Assembly: GCA_028718965.1 (NCBI GenBank)
Contig: JAQUKS010000005.1
Coordinates: 1-42,519 of the forward strand
DNA from: Minisyncoccota bacterium
GTDB taxonomy: Bacteria > Patescibacteriota > Minisyncoccia > Minisyncoccales > CG1-02-41-26
Reading direction: 5' to 3'
DNA length: 42,519 nt
Under the pieces are notes generated by a model. The model saw nothing but the letters and a program-made list of their open reading frames with translations. It searched no databases and was not told the DNA's origin. The position numbers were made by a program, and so were the translations under genes. Positions 5,395 through 42,519 of this stretch are shown here, piece by piece (position 1 is the first letter of the stretch; each line of letters opens with the position of its first letter).

Positions 5395-5423
5395 TTTCAG
5401 TCGAAAGGATAAAGAGTTATAAT
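5395..5423 (+). promoter_or_regulatory. Promoter of acdB, leaderless geometry
   Basis: Perfect TATAAT at 5418-5423 with a weak -35 (TTTCAG, 5395-5400) and a 17-base spacer. Only eight bases separate the -10 box from the ATG at 5432, so transcription should begin at or next to the start codon. Confidence 0.6.
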
Positions 5424-10973: not shown

Positions 10974-11054
10974 TGCCGGCCCGCTGACCGATCGAGAAGG
11001 ATTTTTATCGTCCGTTAAAACGGCAAAAATAGTTCTTTGAAAAGGAGAGTTAAA

Positions 11055-12167
11055 ATGATAAGAGTTGATTGGCACGGGCCGGCTGATTGGGACAAATCTT
11101 TTGAATCGATCTCACCCACCGAGATGGATATCTATTTCTATCAGTCTAACCGTCGGGGTCGAGACACTTGTCGGCATAAGTGCGAACATTGTTTTTTTCA
11201 GAGGGTTCGGGTATATGAGATTCCTATGAGTTTGGCCTGCGAGATCACTAAGGATTTAGCCGGCAAGGGCTATCGAATCGGCTTAACCCCGGCCGATTCT
11301 CTGGCTCAAGACGTATTATCCAGCGGGGTTGACGGGTCTGCTTATCGTATTTCCGGTTTGGGACACATGGCCTGGACCAGCGGAGCAAAAATGTCTGCTC
11401 CCACATGGAAACAGACGTTGGAAATGGCTTATGGCGCCGGCTACAGAGCCATTATCATGAACGGCCATGGGGCAGCAGGCACCCTGGTGCCTTTTAGGGG
11501 AGTCAGCCGGGCAAGCGCTGTCCAGGCAGCGGTTGACCGGATAAACTGCTGGAATGAAAGCAATCCAGGGCGCCCGTTCGCGCTCGGCATTACTTTCACG
11601 ATTCGCCAGGACCATACTTTCGCTCATTTGGAAAAGATGGTCCGCTGGGCAGACCGAAATAGCGTCAAAGCCCTCCGCTTCAACGCATTCGCGAATTTCA
11701 CTGGCAAGCCGGAGCACCGGCAATACGAACTCTCTATCGCCAAAATAGAGCAATTCTACGGCTGGCTGCCCCGGCTTCATCAGGAGTTAGGAAACAGTCA
11801 GACCAGTTTGTCTGTTTCCGAAGATTTTGGAGATGCGGGGATCCAGCAGATAGAATCTCTGCTTCCTCCGGAATACCGGGGACAGCAGATCGGTCGGTGC
11901 CGCGCCGGCTGGCGGCTGTTTGCCATCATTCAGCTCAACGATGAATTGGTCGTTACCGGTTGCGTAGACCGGTGGTTACCAGTCATGGGTCGTGTCTACC
12001 GGACCGGTTCCGCTGGCTGGGACATTGAGTGGGACCTCGCCGTAATTGCCAGATTGCGGCAGGCCAGGCGCTTCCTCTATGGGTGTTGGGGCGGTGTCGG
12101 CTGGGGTCGCGAGATCGGCTCCGGATTTAACGATCCGGAAGCAGAAAATTTTCTGCTTTACGGATAA
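11055..12167 (+). CDS. Radical SAM enzyme of unknown reaction
   Basis: A 370-aa protein with the radical SAM cluster motif C39-x3-C43-x2-C46 in DTCRHKCEHCFF. The following region, with YRAIIMNGHG, FALGITFTIRQ and VKALRFNAFANF, fits a partial TIM barrel. Later cysteines (GRCRAGW, VTGCVDRW, LYGCWGG) could ligate an extra cluster, but no full SPASM pattern is seen. The C-terminus is rich in Trp and Gly. ATG 11055 is chosen because GGAG stands seven bases before it, an SD sequence unusual for this window; the TTG at 11037 is a poorer start. By eye the gene is more GC-rich than the two genes after it. It opens a cluster with an aminotransferase and an OCD-family reductase, so small-molecule or peptide biosynthesis is inferred. 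Confidence 0.75.
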   Translation: MIRVDWHGPADWDKSFESISPTEMDIYFYQSNRRGRDTCRHKCEHCFFQRVRVYEIPMSLACEITKDLAGKGYRIGLTPADSLAQDVLSSGVDGSAYRISGLGHMAWTSGAKMSAPTWKQTLEMAYGAGYRAIIMNGHGAAGTLVPFRGVSRASAVQAAVDRINCWNESNPGRPFALGITFTIRQDHTFAHLEKMVRWADRNSVKALRFNAFANFTGKPEHRQYELSIAKIEQFYGWLPRLHQELGNSQTSLSVSEDFGDAGIQQIESLLPPEYRGQQIGRCRAGWRLFAIIQLNDELVVTGCVDRWLPVMGRVYRTGSAGWDIEWDLAVIARLRQARRFLYGCWGGVGWGREIGSGFNDPEAENFLLYG

Positions 12168-14334: not shown

Positions 14335-14363
14335 TTGCGTTGGGGTCGGTTTTTGGGTATTAT
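14335..14363 (+). promoter_or_regulatory. tyrS promoter, leaderless geometry
   Basis: TTGCGT (14335-14340), a 17-base spacer and TATTAT (14358-14363). Only six bases separate the -10 box from ATG 14370, so the start codon should be at or within a base or two of the 5' end of the mRNA. Confidence 0.7.
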
Positions 14364-14369
14364 GGAAAA

Positions 14370-15581
14370 ATGCCAATAAATACGGGCGCGCGAAAAATCG
14401 AAGAATTGTTGAGCAGGGGAGTGGAGGAGGTGATCGACAGAGGCCACCTGGAGGCGGCTTTGCGTTCGGGCAAGAAATTGCGAATCAAGCTGGGAATCGA
14501 CCCGACAAGCCCGAATATCCACATCGGCCGTTCAATACCTTTGTTCAAATTGCGCGATTTTCAGGAACTTGGCCATCAAATCGTTTTGATAATCGGCGAC
14601 TTCACGGGCATAATAGGGGACACCTCGGACAAGGAAAGCGAGCGGCCCATGCTCACCGAAGAGACGGTGAAGAATAATCTCAAGAATTACATAAAGCAGG
14701 CCGAAAAAGTGGTTGACATCAAAAAATGCGAAGTTTGCTACAACAGCAAGTGGCTGGGCAAGCTTGATTATCACGAGATCGGCCGGCAGGCGAATATTTT
14801 TTCTTTGAACGAGTTCATCTCCAGGGAAAACATCAGAAAAAGGCTGGACGAGGGCAAAAGAATATCGTTAAGAGAGGTGCTTTATCCGTTGATGCAGGGG
14901 TATGATTCGGTGGCTGTTAAAGCTGACGTTGAGGTAGGCGGGACTGATCAGAGATTCAACCTTTTGGCGGGCAGGGAAATGCAAAGGCATTACGGCCAAG
15001 AGCCCCAGGACATCATGACAAATCCCCTTATCGAGGGCCTGGACGGGCGTAAAATGAGCTCAAGCTGGGGCAATACCATCAATCTTTTCGACGAACCGGA
15101 CGATATGTTCGGCAAAGTGATGTCTTTAAAAGATGAGCTTATTATAAGGTATTTCATTCTTACGACCAGAATAAGCCAAAGCGAGATCGAAGAATATAAA
15201 AAAGCGCTGGAGTCCGGGGATAATCCGCGGGATGTCAAAATGAATCTGGCTTTTGAAATAGTGAAGCAGTATCACGGCAAGGAGGCGGCCGCGAGAGCGA
15301 AGGAGGAATTTAAAAATGTTTTTCAAAAAAAGGAACTGCCCTCGGACATTCCCGGATGGCAGGCCTCAAAAGGGGAATATAATATATTGGATCTGTTGTT
15401 TGAGAGCGGGCTTACGCCGTCCAAGGCAGAGGCAAAAAGAATGGTTCTGGGGAGCGCGGTTGAAATAAACGGCCATACGAAAGCCGACTGGCAGGAAACG
15501 ATAAAAATCGAGGATAATATGATAATTCAGGTCGGTAAGAGGAAGTTCATAAAAATTTTAGTTAAAAATCATAGCCAATAA
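14370..15581 (+). CDS. tyrS: Tyrosyl-tRNA synthetase
   Basis: Charges tRNA-Tyr (class I synthetase, 403 aa). The HIGH-type motif is HIGR at residues 51-54 after GIDPTSPNI, and the KMSKS-type loop is KMSSS at 228-232. VGGTDQRFNLLAGRE forms the tyrosine pocket. The last 60 residues form an S4 RNA-binding domain (LLFESGLTPSKAEAKRMVLGSAV). ATG 14370 is chosen because it fits the family N-terminus and follows the promoter -10 box directly; the TTG 48 bases upstream would precede the promoter. It is separated from the accessory cluster by its own promoter. Confidence 0.96.
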   Translation: MPINTGARKIEELLSRGVEEVIDRGHLEAALRSGKKLRIKLGIDPTSPNIHIGRSIPLFKLRDFQELGHQIVLIIGDFTGIIGDTSDKESERPMLTEETVKNNLKNYIKQAEKVVDIKKCEVCYNSKWLGKLDYHEIGRQANIFSLNEFISRENIRKRLDEGKRISLREVLYPLMQGYDSVAVKADVEVGGTDQRFNLLAGREMQRHYGQEPQDIMTNPLIEGLDGRKMSSSWGNTINLFDEPDDMFGKVMSLKDELIIRYFILTTRISQSEIEEYKKALESGDNPRDVKMNLAFEIVKQYHGKEAAARAKEEFKNVFQKKELPSDIPGWQASKGEYNILDLLFESGLTPSKAEAKRMVLGSAVEINGHTKADWQETIKIEDNMIIQVGKRKFIKILVKNHSQ

Positions 15582-23340: not shown

Positions 23341-23754
23341 TTACCACCAATCTTGTTTTAAACGTTTTTCTATTGCACTTACTCTGCTTAATAGCAGGAA
23401 AACTATGGCGCTAAAACAACATATGGCTATGAGGATACTAACCGATTGTATTAGTACCCTATTCATTAATATAAGGGATATTATCCCCGTAATTAATGGA
23501 ATGAAAATATCATAGCTATTGCCTTTTATTAAGGCAGCAAAGATAATTCCAAGTAGTGAAGCAAGGGAAATCGCGAGAAATACTTTGATCGCTTTGACCA
23601 CCGCTTTACCTGCCGAATCAAGTGCGTCTGCTACCGCTAACCCTGCTGGATCTATCACCTTTTTAAAAATTTCAGATGTACCTAGAATGGCGCACGCGAT
23701 TAGTGCATACATTAATATGCAACCAATTATGATTATCTTGAAAAGGTCTTTCAT
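23341..23754 (-). CDS. Small four-helix membrane protein, unknown function, strong SD
   Basis: A 137-aa hydrophobic protein with about four predicted transmembrane segments (FKIIIIGCILMYALIACAIL near the start; AIKVFLAISLASLLGIIFAAL; two more before the basic end SRVSAIEKRLKQDWW). An amphipathic stretch EIFKKVIDPAGLAVADALDS sits between helices one and two. I recognise no family. ATG 23754 is chosen because AGGAGG stands six bases upstream; the longer frame to 23781 would begin before the SD. It has its own promoter with an operator-like dyad shared with the gene at 23967, and its own terminator. Opposite-strand ORFs here are shadows. Confidence 0.7.
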   Translation of the reverse strand: MKDLFKIIIIGCILMYALIACAILGTSEIFKKVIDPAGLAVADALDSAGKAVVKAIKVFLAISLASLLGIIFAALIKGNSYDIFIPLITGIISLILMNRVLIQSVSILIAICCFSAIVFLLLSRVSAIEKRLKQDWW

Positions 23755-24488: not shown

Positions 24489-24665
24489 TTATATTTGAGA
24501 AAAGCTCTGCTGGCCGCTCTCGATTATTTCCAAGGGCCTTTTTTGAGAGTTTGCCTGAAAAATAACTCCCAGACCGAAAGAGAGGAGGCAAAGTAAAAAA
24601 ATAAAAAGCGCCAGGATAAGGCTGTCCTTGCGACGCTTGAAAAATTTGACAATATCTGATAACAT
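24489..24665 (-). CDS. 58-aa single-pass membrane protein
   Basis: A short ORF starting MLSDIVKFFKRRKDS, then one transmembrane helix (LILALFIFLLCLLSFGLGVIF) and a polar tail ending QQSFSQI. The basic segment before the helix predicts N-in orientation. Small proteins of this plan, KRRKD-like head then a helix ending in SFGLG, are frequent in parcubacterial genomes (from memory). It is divergent from rpmA, 29 bases away, and its stop overlaps the region of the 141-aa gene's promoter. No SD sequence. Function unknown. Confidence 0.6.
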   Translation of the reverse strand: MLSDIVKFFKRRKDSLILALFIFLLCLLSFGLGVIFQANSQKRPLEIIESGQQSFSQI

Positions 24666-27175: not shown

Positions 27176-27204
27176 ATTCTACGGTAAATCTTTTAAAAGT
27201 TCAA
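27176..27204 (-). promoter_or_regulatory. rplI promoter, leaderless geometry
   Basis: On the minus strand TTGAAC (27204-27199), a 17-base spacer, TAGAAT (27181-27176), then eight bases to ATG 27167. It overlaps the 3' end of ctpA. Confidence 0.5.
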
Positions 27205-28414: not shown

Positions 28415-28443
28415 ATTATACAAAAATTGAGCCCCGCAAGCAA
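28415..28443 (-). promoter_or_regulatory. ctpA promoter, near-leaderless geometry
   Basis: On the minus strand TTGCTT (28443-28438), a 17-base spacer and a perfect TATAAT (28420-28415). Nine bases separate it from ATG 28405. Confidence 0.65.
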
Positions 28444-37319: not shown

Positions 37320-37348
37320 AATTTACTCTTTTTCAAACGCAAGGACAA
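37320..37348 (-). promoter_or_regulatory. rarA promoter, leaderless geometry
   Basis: On the minus strand TTGTCC (37348-37343), a 17-base spacer, TAAATT (37325-37320), then seven bases to ATG 37312. Confidence 0.5.
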
Positions 37349-42004: not shown

Positions 42005-42053
42005 GGGCCGGTTGTTGAGTGAAACTGTGGATAACTTCAAAGCAACGTCGCAG

Positions 42054-42126
42054 TGGACCTTACCGGATTCGAACCGGTGACCTCCTCATTGCAAATGAGG
42101 CGCTCTACCAGCTGAGCTAAAGGCCC
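42054..42126 (-). tRNA. tRNA-Ala (TGC)
   Basis: On the minus strand the acceptor arms are GGGCCTT and AAGGTCC (one G-T pair). The D arm has AGCTCAGC, the anticodon stem is CCTCA/TGAGG around TTTGCAA with anticodon TGC, and the T arm is CCGGTTCGAATCCGG. The discriminator is A; CCA is not encoded. Confidence 0.96.
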
Positions 42127-42182
42127 GTAGAGAACACGGAGCGCGGTGTTTTGCTTGCCCGAAAACATAGAAATTCAAACAG

Positions 42183-42254
42183 TGGGCGCGGAAGGAATCG
42201 GACCTTCAACCTCCTTTTTATCAGAAAGGCGTTCTACCACTGAACTACGCGCCC
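42183..42254 (-). tRNA. tRNA-Ile (GAT)
   Basis: On the minus strand the acceptor arms are GGGCGCG and CGCGCCC. The anticodon stem is CCTTT/AAAGG around CTGATAA, anticodon GAT, and the T arm has GAAGG/CCTTC. The discriminator is A; CCA is not encoded. It lies between 16S and tRNA-Ala, the classical rRNA-spacer order. Confidence 0.95.
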
Positions 42255-42480
42255 GATTATCATCATAACAATAACAAAAAACCTGACGGATTTCAAGATA
42301 AAACAAAAACCCTTTTCAGGGTTTCTGTTTCGCTGGTGATTGAAATTTGGTTCCTATAAGCTGTTTCGCCCGAGGCGGCCGCCTTTATGTTACAGCCAAA
42401 ATTTCGGGCTCCTTGGCCAATACCCACAGAGTTAAAACTCGAATTCCAAGCTTCAACTCTTATCAACCAAAATAATAAAT
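42255..42480 (-). other. 16S-to-tRNA-Ile spacer
   Basis: No coding gene is supported here. A stem-loop at 42301-42330 (arms AAACAAAAACCC and GGGTTTCTGTTT, one mismatch) is T-rich on the minus strand and could be a processing or weak termination element. Confidence 0.6.
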
Positions 42481-42519
42481 AGAAATGATCCACCGACAGG
42501 TTCCCCTACCGGTGCCTTG
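42481..42519 (-). rRNA. rrs: 16S rRNA, 3' end only, lacking the anti-SD core
   Basis: The minus strand from 42519 reads through the helix 45 loop GTAGGGGAACCTG and the invariant GGATCA, then TTTCTATTTATT. Helix 45 pairs well (CACCG with CGGTG), so the RNA looks functional. Where most bacteria have GGATCACCTCCTTTCT, this one has GGATCATTTCT, as if CCTCC were cleanly deleted. The exact mature end is not visible from sequence; 42481 is an estimate. The rest of the gene lies beyond the window. Confidence 0.93.

Follow-up and report, generated by a model that had tools for sequence, protein, structure and literature searches.

The stretch of DNA analysed here (the window, 42,519 nt) belongs to the Patescibacteria (CPR), class Paceibacteria, in the order that holds Candidatus Nealsonbacteria and Gribaldobacteria. 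It carries tyrS, rplI, rpmA, rarA and several other genes and breaks off within the 16S rRNA gene. The original prediction held that promoter-like boxes lie directly before a number of these starts, leaving the transcripts leaderless or nearly so, as would be expected if translation does not use SD pairing. The upstream elements concerned are listed below, with the basis of each assignment in brackets.

Promoters and starts in the window

5418–5423, forward strand: TATAAT, 8 nt to ATG 5432 of an acdB-like (ATP-grasp) gene (sequence; promoter score; Pfam PF13549)
11042–11057, forward strand: SD-bearing start of an AmrS-like gene, AAGGAGAGTTAAA-ATG (sequence; SD motif class)
14335–14340, forward strand: TTGCGT, −35 element of tyrS (sequence; TTGC or TTGA at the same place in most family orthologues)
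14358–14363, forward strand: TATTAT, −10 element of tyrS, 6 nt to ATG (sequence and orthologues)
14370–15581, forward strand: tyrS, tyrosyl-tRNA synthetase, predicted leaderless, ATG at 14370 (open reading frame and homologues in the family)
24637–24665, forward strand: TTGAAA-17-TAACAT, the real promoter of rpmA (footprint across family orthologues; Pfam L27)
27176–27181, reverse strand: TAGAAT, 8 nt to ATG 27167 of rplI (sequence; orthologues; Pfam L9)
28415–28420, reverse strand: TATAAT, 9 nt to ATG 28405 of a ctpA-like gene (sequence; Pfam S41 peptidase)
37320–37325, reverse strand: weak TAAATT, 7 nt to ATG 37312 of rarA (sequence; Pfam MgsA_C/AAA)

Upstream of tyrS the order is TTGCGT, a 17-bp spacer, TATTAT, GGAAAA and the ATG, which reproduces the predicted promoter exactly, −35 element and six-base gap included. 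With this gap the usual +1 falls on the A of the ATG; the −10 box thus places the predicted transcription start at the start codon, as in leaderless (TA-led) genes, and does so in six species. A homologue search found tyrS in 20 of 24 family genomes, and we compared the upstream regions of the 15 orthologues with a readable start. The promoter is kept across the family as TTGC or TTGA followed by TATTAT, TATGAT or TTAAAAT. TATTAT or TATGAT lies exactly 6 nt from the ATG in six orthologues (G000, G002, G003, G015, G021 and G022); elsewhere the distance is 9 nt (G016), 18 nt (G011 and G012), 21–24 nt (G009 and G017) or 27 nt (G023). Because the 6-nt spacing is kept in six species, tyrS is very probably leaderless in some genera and leadered in others, as far as promoter position can tell. 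The base at −1 is A in all six orthologues with 6-nt spacing and T in seven of the nine leadered ones.

The remaining boxes fared unevenly. Those of the acdB-like gene, rplI and the ctpA-like gene lie at the predicted eight, eight and nine bases. The acdB-like gene, with T at −1, is a near-leaderless candidate. A leaderless-type start is plausible for rplI, whose TAGAAT is kept within the genus, 8 nt from the ATG here and 26–27 nt in G002 and G003. For rarA the distance of seven bases holds, but the box is weak. The box assigned to rpmA at seven bases was misplaced: the promoter conserved in the family ends 29 nt before ATG 24695 in this genome, not adjacent to the start codon as in a leaderless gene, so rpmA would be leadered, with a leader of about 22 nt. 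Promoters of both rpmA and rplI shift position between orthologues. The AmrS-like gene, also put forward as leaderless, has a well-spaced SD before its start and so is not leaderless by signal.

The 16S rRNA tail and SD motifs

The reverse strand at the end of the window holds part of an rRNA operon, tRNA-Ile and then tRNA-Ala following the 16S end as in the operon spacer:

42053–42126, reverse strand: tRNA-Ala(TGC), 16S–23S spacer (ARAGORN and Rfam)
42182–42254, reverse strand: tRNA-Ile(GAT), 16S–23S spacer (ARAGORN and Rfam)
42478–42519, reverse strand: 3′ end of 16S rRNA, cut by the contig end, ...GGTAGGGGAACCTGTCGGTGGATCA+TTTCTATT (sequence and relatives)

In canonical 16S genes, GGATCA continues as CCTCCTT. 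Here GGATCA is followed by TTTCTATT, and the 3′ end reads GGATCATTTCTATT (in a longer reading ...GTAGGGGAACCTGTCGGTGGATCATTTCTATTTATT; tail form GGAUCAUUUCUAU), the anti-SD CCUCC being absent at 42485–42478 on the minus strand. The fragment is only 42 nt long and lies at the contig edge, and relatives back its reading. Scanning all GTDB species for 16S ends in which GGATCA is not followed by C returned ten contigs, eight of them from CPR: Nealsonbacteria (4), Gribaldobacteria, Paceibacterota, Patescibacteria group UBA6532, and one matching family member G009. The 16S end (GGATCATCTCC...) and the beginning of the spacer are identical in two MAGs labelled Verrucomicrobiaceae and Bacteriovoracaceae (L062 and L063), which means that one or both of these rRNA contigs are misbinned.

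A scan allowing up to one mismatch recovered the tail from 37 genomes of the order. CCTCC is missing from 36 of the 37, and those 36 span 15 families; the exception, G176, possibly reflects misbinning. In the class outside the order, 16 of 24 tails carry CCTCC and 8 are not canonical, and in the phylum outside the class 51 of 52 are canonical. The tails ACATCATT, ACTACATT, ATTTCATT and ATCACATT, for instance, resemble a CCTCC that substitutions have eroded. Outside the order, CCTCC is also absent from the Paceibacteria G247, G287, G302, G418, G555, G275, G319 and G374, with tails including GGATTATAC, GGACCAATTC and GGATAACATT; the pattern of tails suggests several independent losses within the class. 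In relatives, matches to group II intron domains D1–D4 lie in or beside the rRNA operon (L068, 4598–4712; L061, 255–339), and the 16S gene is interrupted in several of their genomes.

We read 856 of the 865 kb of the genome to which the window belongs and called 722 genes with a dicodon caller of our own; atypical genes escape it, and the results were checked on strict, unambiguous starts. Upstream of the called genes, SD motifs do not rise above control: GGAGG precedes 4 of 674 (control 6 of 674) and GGAG 16 of 674 (control 30), and in E. coli, the positive control, the same pipeline found GGAG before 17 versus 4 of 65. The missing CCUCC, here and across the order, and the lack of SDs before called genes bear out the prediction that translation does without SD pairing.

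Strong SDs at functional spacing number 68 in this genome, against about 28 for control motifs, which leaves about 40 extra genes, or about 5%. They often hold the full AAGGAGGTGAT; AGGAGGTGAT was seen 11 times and its reversed sequence, TAGTGGAGGA, never. The −1 base of these genes is mostly A. Many encode atypical small membrane proteins or lipoproteins, and guaA and leuA are also among them. In the window, four genes start behind strong, well-spaced SDs, at 23754(−), 24392(−), 30378(+) and 11055(+), for example AAAAGGAGGTGATAACA-GTG. The SD is retained between species in a few orthologues. We considered a conserved native class and prefer horizontal gain, because guaA (3 of 24 family genomes) and leuA (2 of 24) are sporadic; most simply, they were acquired recently from bacteria that use SDs, and the SD is a relic. 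Given about 40 genes with a good SD, some residual SD use could persist.

These same genes, and the fact that the window contig ends inside 16S, might be taken to mean that the missing anti-SD is an artefact of assembly or binning, or that a second, normal 16S serves the SD-bearing genes. We rate this as the least probable of the alternatives we weighed. The same loss recurs in dozens of independent genomes; the single-contig genomes G213 and G242 of the order have one 16S each; no CCTCC-bearing 16S tail occurs elsewhere in the 856 kb of this genome; and the scattered distribution of guaA and leuA fits horizontal gain. Loss of bS21 was also considered as a cause. The 24 family genomes gave no Pfam match above cut-off and five weak matches, a result uninformative on its own.

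Start-codon context and promoter spacing

Upstream regions in this genome are 70–80% A+T. The region before starts is A-rich and G-poor, with A at about 0.5 from −6 to −3, and ATG triplets are depleted near the start. The base directly before the start codon is T at 66% of 682 starts and at 77% of the 126 unambiguous ones, against 23.5% at internal in-frame ATG (Met codons) and 28% at intergenic ATG. Under a stricter start rule, T(−1) stands at 68% in this genome, 84% in G003, 68% in G022 and 72% in G242, an order member from another family; it is 49% in G302, which lost the anti-SD outside the order, 27% in G392, the single class genome used as an anti-SD-bearing control, and 28% in E. coli. 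Such a strong U(−1) at most starts implies that the −1 base is transcribed in most mRNAs. The anticodon loop of the initiator tRNA is CTCATAA, with A37 present, and A37 may pair with U(−1). Neither fmt (methionyl-tRNA formyltransferase) nor def (peptide deformylase) was found in G000 by tblastn or motif, the genome being 96% complete, so initiation may use unformylated Met.

SD pairing could in principle persist through a tail and an SD that changed together. Such organisms are reported (category iii in the available text of PMC10783764), and the U-rich tail can pair in part with the A-rich motifs, of which AATAA and ATAAA are enriched. The complements of the tail core (ATAGA, TAGAA, AGAAA, GAAAT and AATGA), however, show no enrichment (z from −2 to 0.9), which makes a re-matched SD unlikely; tails vary by family while the A-rich/U(−1) signature stays, and A peaks at −3 to −6, too near the start for SD geometry. 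We therefore hold a co-evolved pair to be highly improbable.

To place transcription starts, sigma70-like promoters were scored by their distance to the ATG, leaving out genes tightly inside operons, against 300 position-specific, dinucleotide-preserving shuffles; the scoring is consensus-based, transcription starts are all deduced from promoter-like sequence, and the genomes are MAGs. This replaced a count of TATAAT-like hexamers alone, whose signal was weak and prone to composition. Sites 5–8 nt before the ATG number 17 against 4.8 expected (sd 2.3; p = 0.003, the lowest value that 300 shuffles allow), and sites at 9–40 nt number 89 against about 24. All distance bins from 5 nt outward are significant, and promoter density is highest at 5–8 nt. 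The leaderless spacing of 5–8 nt accounts for only about one sixth of the detectable (excess) promoters within 40 nt. The excess of −10 boxes expected at leaderless spacing is thus present, but it is not restricted to that distance. Likewise, the leaderless housekeeping genes of the original prediction are, on the evidence of promoter position, real in this genome, with tyrS kept at 6 nt, but they are a minority, since most detectable promoters sit 9–40 nt upstream.

That AT-rich upstream DNA yields such boxes near starts merely by chance is an unlikely account. It draws on the base composition of these regions and on the weak or wrong boxes cited for rarA and rpmA, and it is opposed by the excess over position-specific dinucleotide shuffles, by the tyrS geometry conserved across species, and by the behaviour of U(−1) at exactly 6 nt described below. 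The opposite extreme, a mainly leaderless genome in which scarcity of SDs merely reflects scarcity of leaders, is very unlikely. The excess of 17 over 4.8 at 5–8 nt and the conserved tyrS spacing speak for it; against it, promoters at 9–40 nt outnumber those at 5–8 nt about fivefold, rpmA and most tyrS and rplI orthologues are leadered, and U(−1) stays strong even where a gene is first in its operon (60%), which requires a transcribed −1 base. Leaderless-type spacing, moreover, also occurs in G392, which keeps its anti-SD.

In E. coli, the same pipeline showed no promoter excess at 5–8 nt. In G392 that excess is even cleaner than in this genome. This relative (L137–L147; CCTCC in 16S) has a strong −10 excess 6–8 nt before the ATG, T(−7) in 47% of starts, and leaderless genes seem common in it. 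Leaderlessness therefore does not result from the loss of SD pairing.

Leaderless genes offer a natural control for U(−1). In this genome, T precedes the ATG in 4 of 14 genes whose promoter lies exactly 6 nt away and in 130 of 177 at other distances (p = 0.001), a contrast that was noticed in the data before testing, involves small numbers and comes from this genome; G003 and G022 alone gave 2/4 versus 81/112, which is not significant. At 7–8 nt, where the predicted transcript would begin 5′-(N)UAUG, T(−1) is found in 15 of 16. The loss of U(−1) at 6 nt is as expected if the −1 base is untranscribed there. Start sites of sigma70 favour a pyrimidine at −1, so promoter preference does not account for this loss.

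Start selection and its relation to known systems

We put at roughly 75% the probability that the order has lost its 16S anti-SD and that starts are chosen by local A-rich/U(−1) context, with leader length free to vary and a leaderless minority. With the anti-SD gone, as the 16S sequences show, mRNA–rRNA pairing cannot select starts. The ribosome would instead choose them by the signature observed before starts, an A-rich, G-poor stretch from about −13 to −3 together with U(−1) before the AUG: a 30S subunit already bearing initiator tRNA may land on unstructured A-rich RNA, and the initiator tRNA may read UAUG, with U(−1) paired with A37 beside the anticodon. As pairing with the leader would not be needed, leader length would drift, and orthologous promoters would shift between 0 and about 30 nt upstream of the ATG. 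A minority, including tyrS, would be fully leaderless and transcribed from the A of the ATG; another group would be near-leaderless, beginning 5′-(N)UAUG. More tentatively, and below even odds, we propose that throughout the order SD selection has been replaced by a start signal of four bases, UAUG, which the initiator tRNA reads on A-rich leaders (U(−1) with A37), with leaderless genes alone exempt from U(−1) and any strong SD denoting a horizontally acquired gene.

Parts of this picture have precedents. In the available text of PMC10783764, loss of CCUCC with scarce SDs (category iv) is described for Flavobacteriia, Absconditabacteria SR1, Campbellbacteria, Wolfebacteria, Peribacter and reduced symbionts. 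This genome resembles them in both respects, with a 16S tail without CCUCC and few SD genes, the bulk of genes lacking an SD. That category lists several single CPR genomes, whereas here the loss spans an order of Paceibacteria with 15 families, and the same text does not describe for it the U(−1) signature or the contrast between leaderless and leadered genes. Flavobacterium johnsoniae initiates independently of SDs on A-rich leaders, with mostly leadered transcripts (PMC6847099), and resembles this genome in its lack of SDs, A at −3 and −6 and depletion of AUG near starts. It differs in keeping the anti-SD, a feature of the Bacteroidetes type of SD-independent initiation that is absent here, and in its positive determinants, which are A(−3), A(−6), A(−12) and A(−13) and not U(−1) (PMC6847099). 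E. coli with an altered anti-SD also starts independently of SDs on A-rich sequence (PMC7043885).

Leaderless (TA-led) genes make up about 20% in Actinobacteria and about 40% in Deinococcus-Thermus, and leaderless minorities are widespread (PMC3160421). As in those genes, a −10-like box lies about 6 nt from the start codon in a subset here; the difference is that this minority occurs in a lineage without anti-SD, whereas Actinobacteria and Deinococcus-Thermus are otherwise SD-led. An extended codon–anticodon interaction between U(−1) and A37 of the initiator tRNA was described by Esposito 2003 (as relayed in the available text of PMC9841429). Both systems have a U directly before the AUG and an initiator tRNA with A37; there the interaction is a modulator, whereas here U(−1) is a genome-wide start signature and its pairing with A37 is presumed.

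Loss of CCUCC with scarce SDs, A-rich SD-independent starts and leaderless minorities are thus already known. The literature searched, from which subscription papers were excluded, held no description of order-wide anti-SD loss or a U(−1) signature in CPR, Parcubacteria or Nealsonbacteria. The order-wide loss of CCUCC together with a U(−1) signature is apparently new, although a literature search is no proof of novelty. Work on how bacteria select starts without SDs has drawn mainly on E. coli with mutant ribosomes and on Bacteroidetes, many of which retain the anti-SD. Here the anti-SD itself is gone from a clade, a sharp signature of another kind is present, and leaderless and leadered genes supply a ready contrast, so that comparison can put the question to the test. 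Start predictors that seek SDs would misplace starts in a large uncultured group, and SD motifs in the order could mark foreign genes. Within the tyrS coding sequence, AGGAGGTGATCGA at 14424–14436 of the window has the form of a perfect SD, which this genome, lacking the anti-SD, tolerates.
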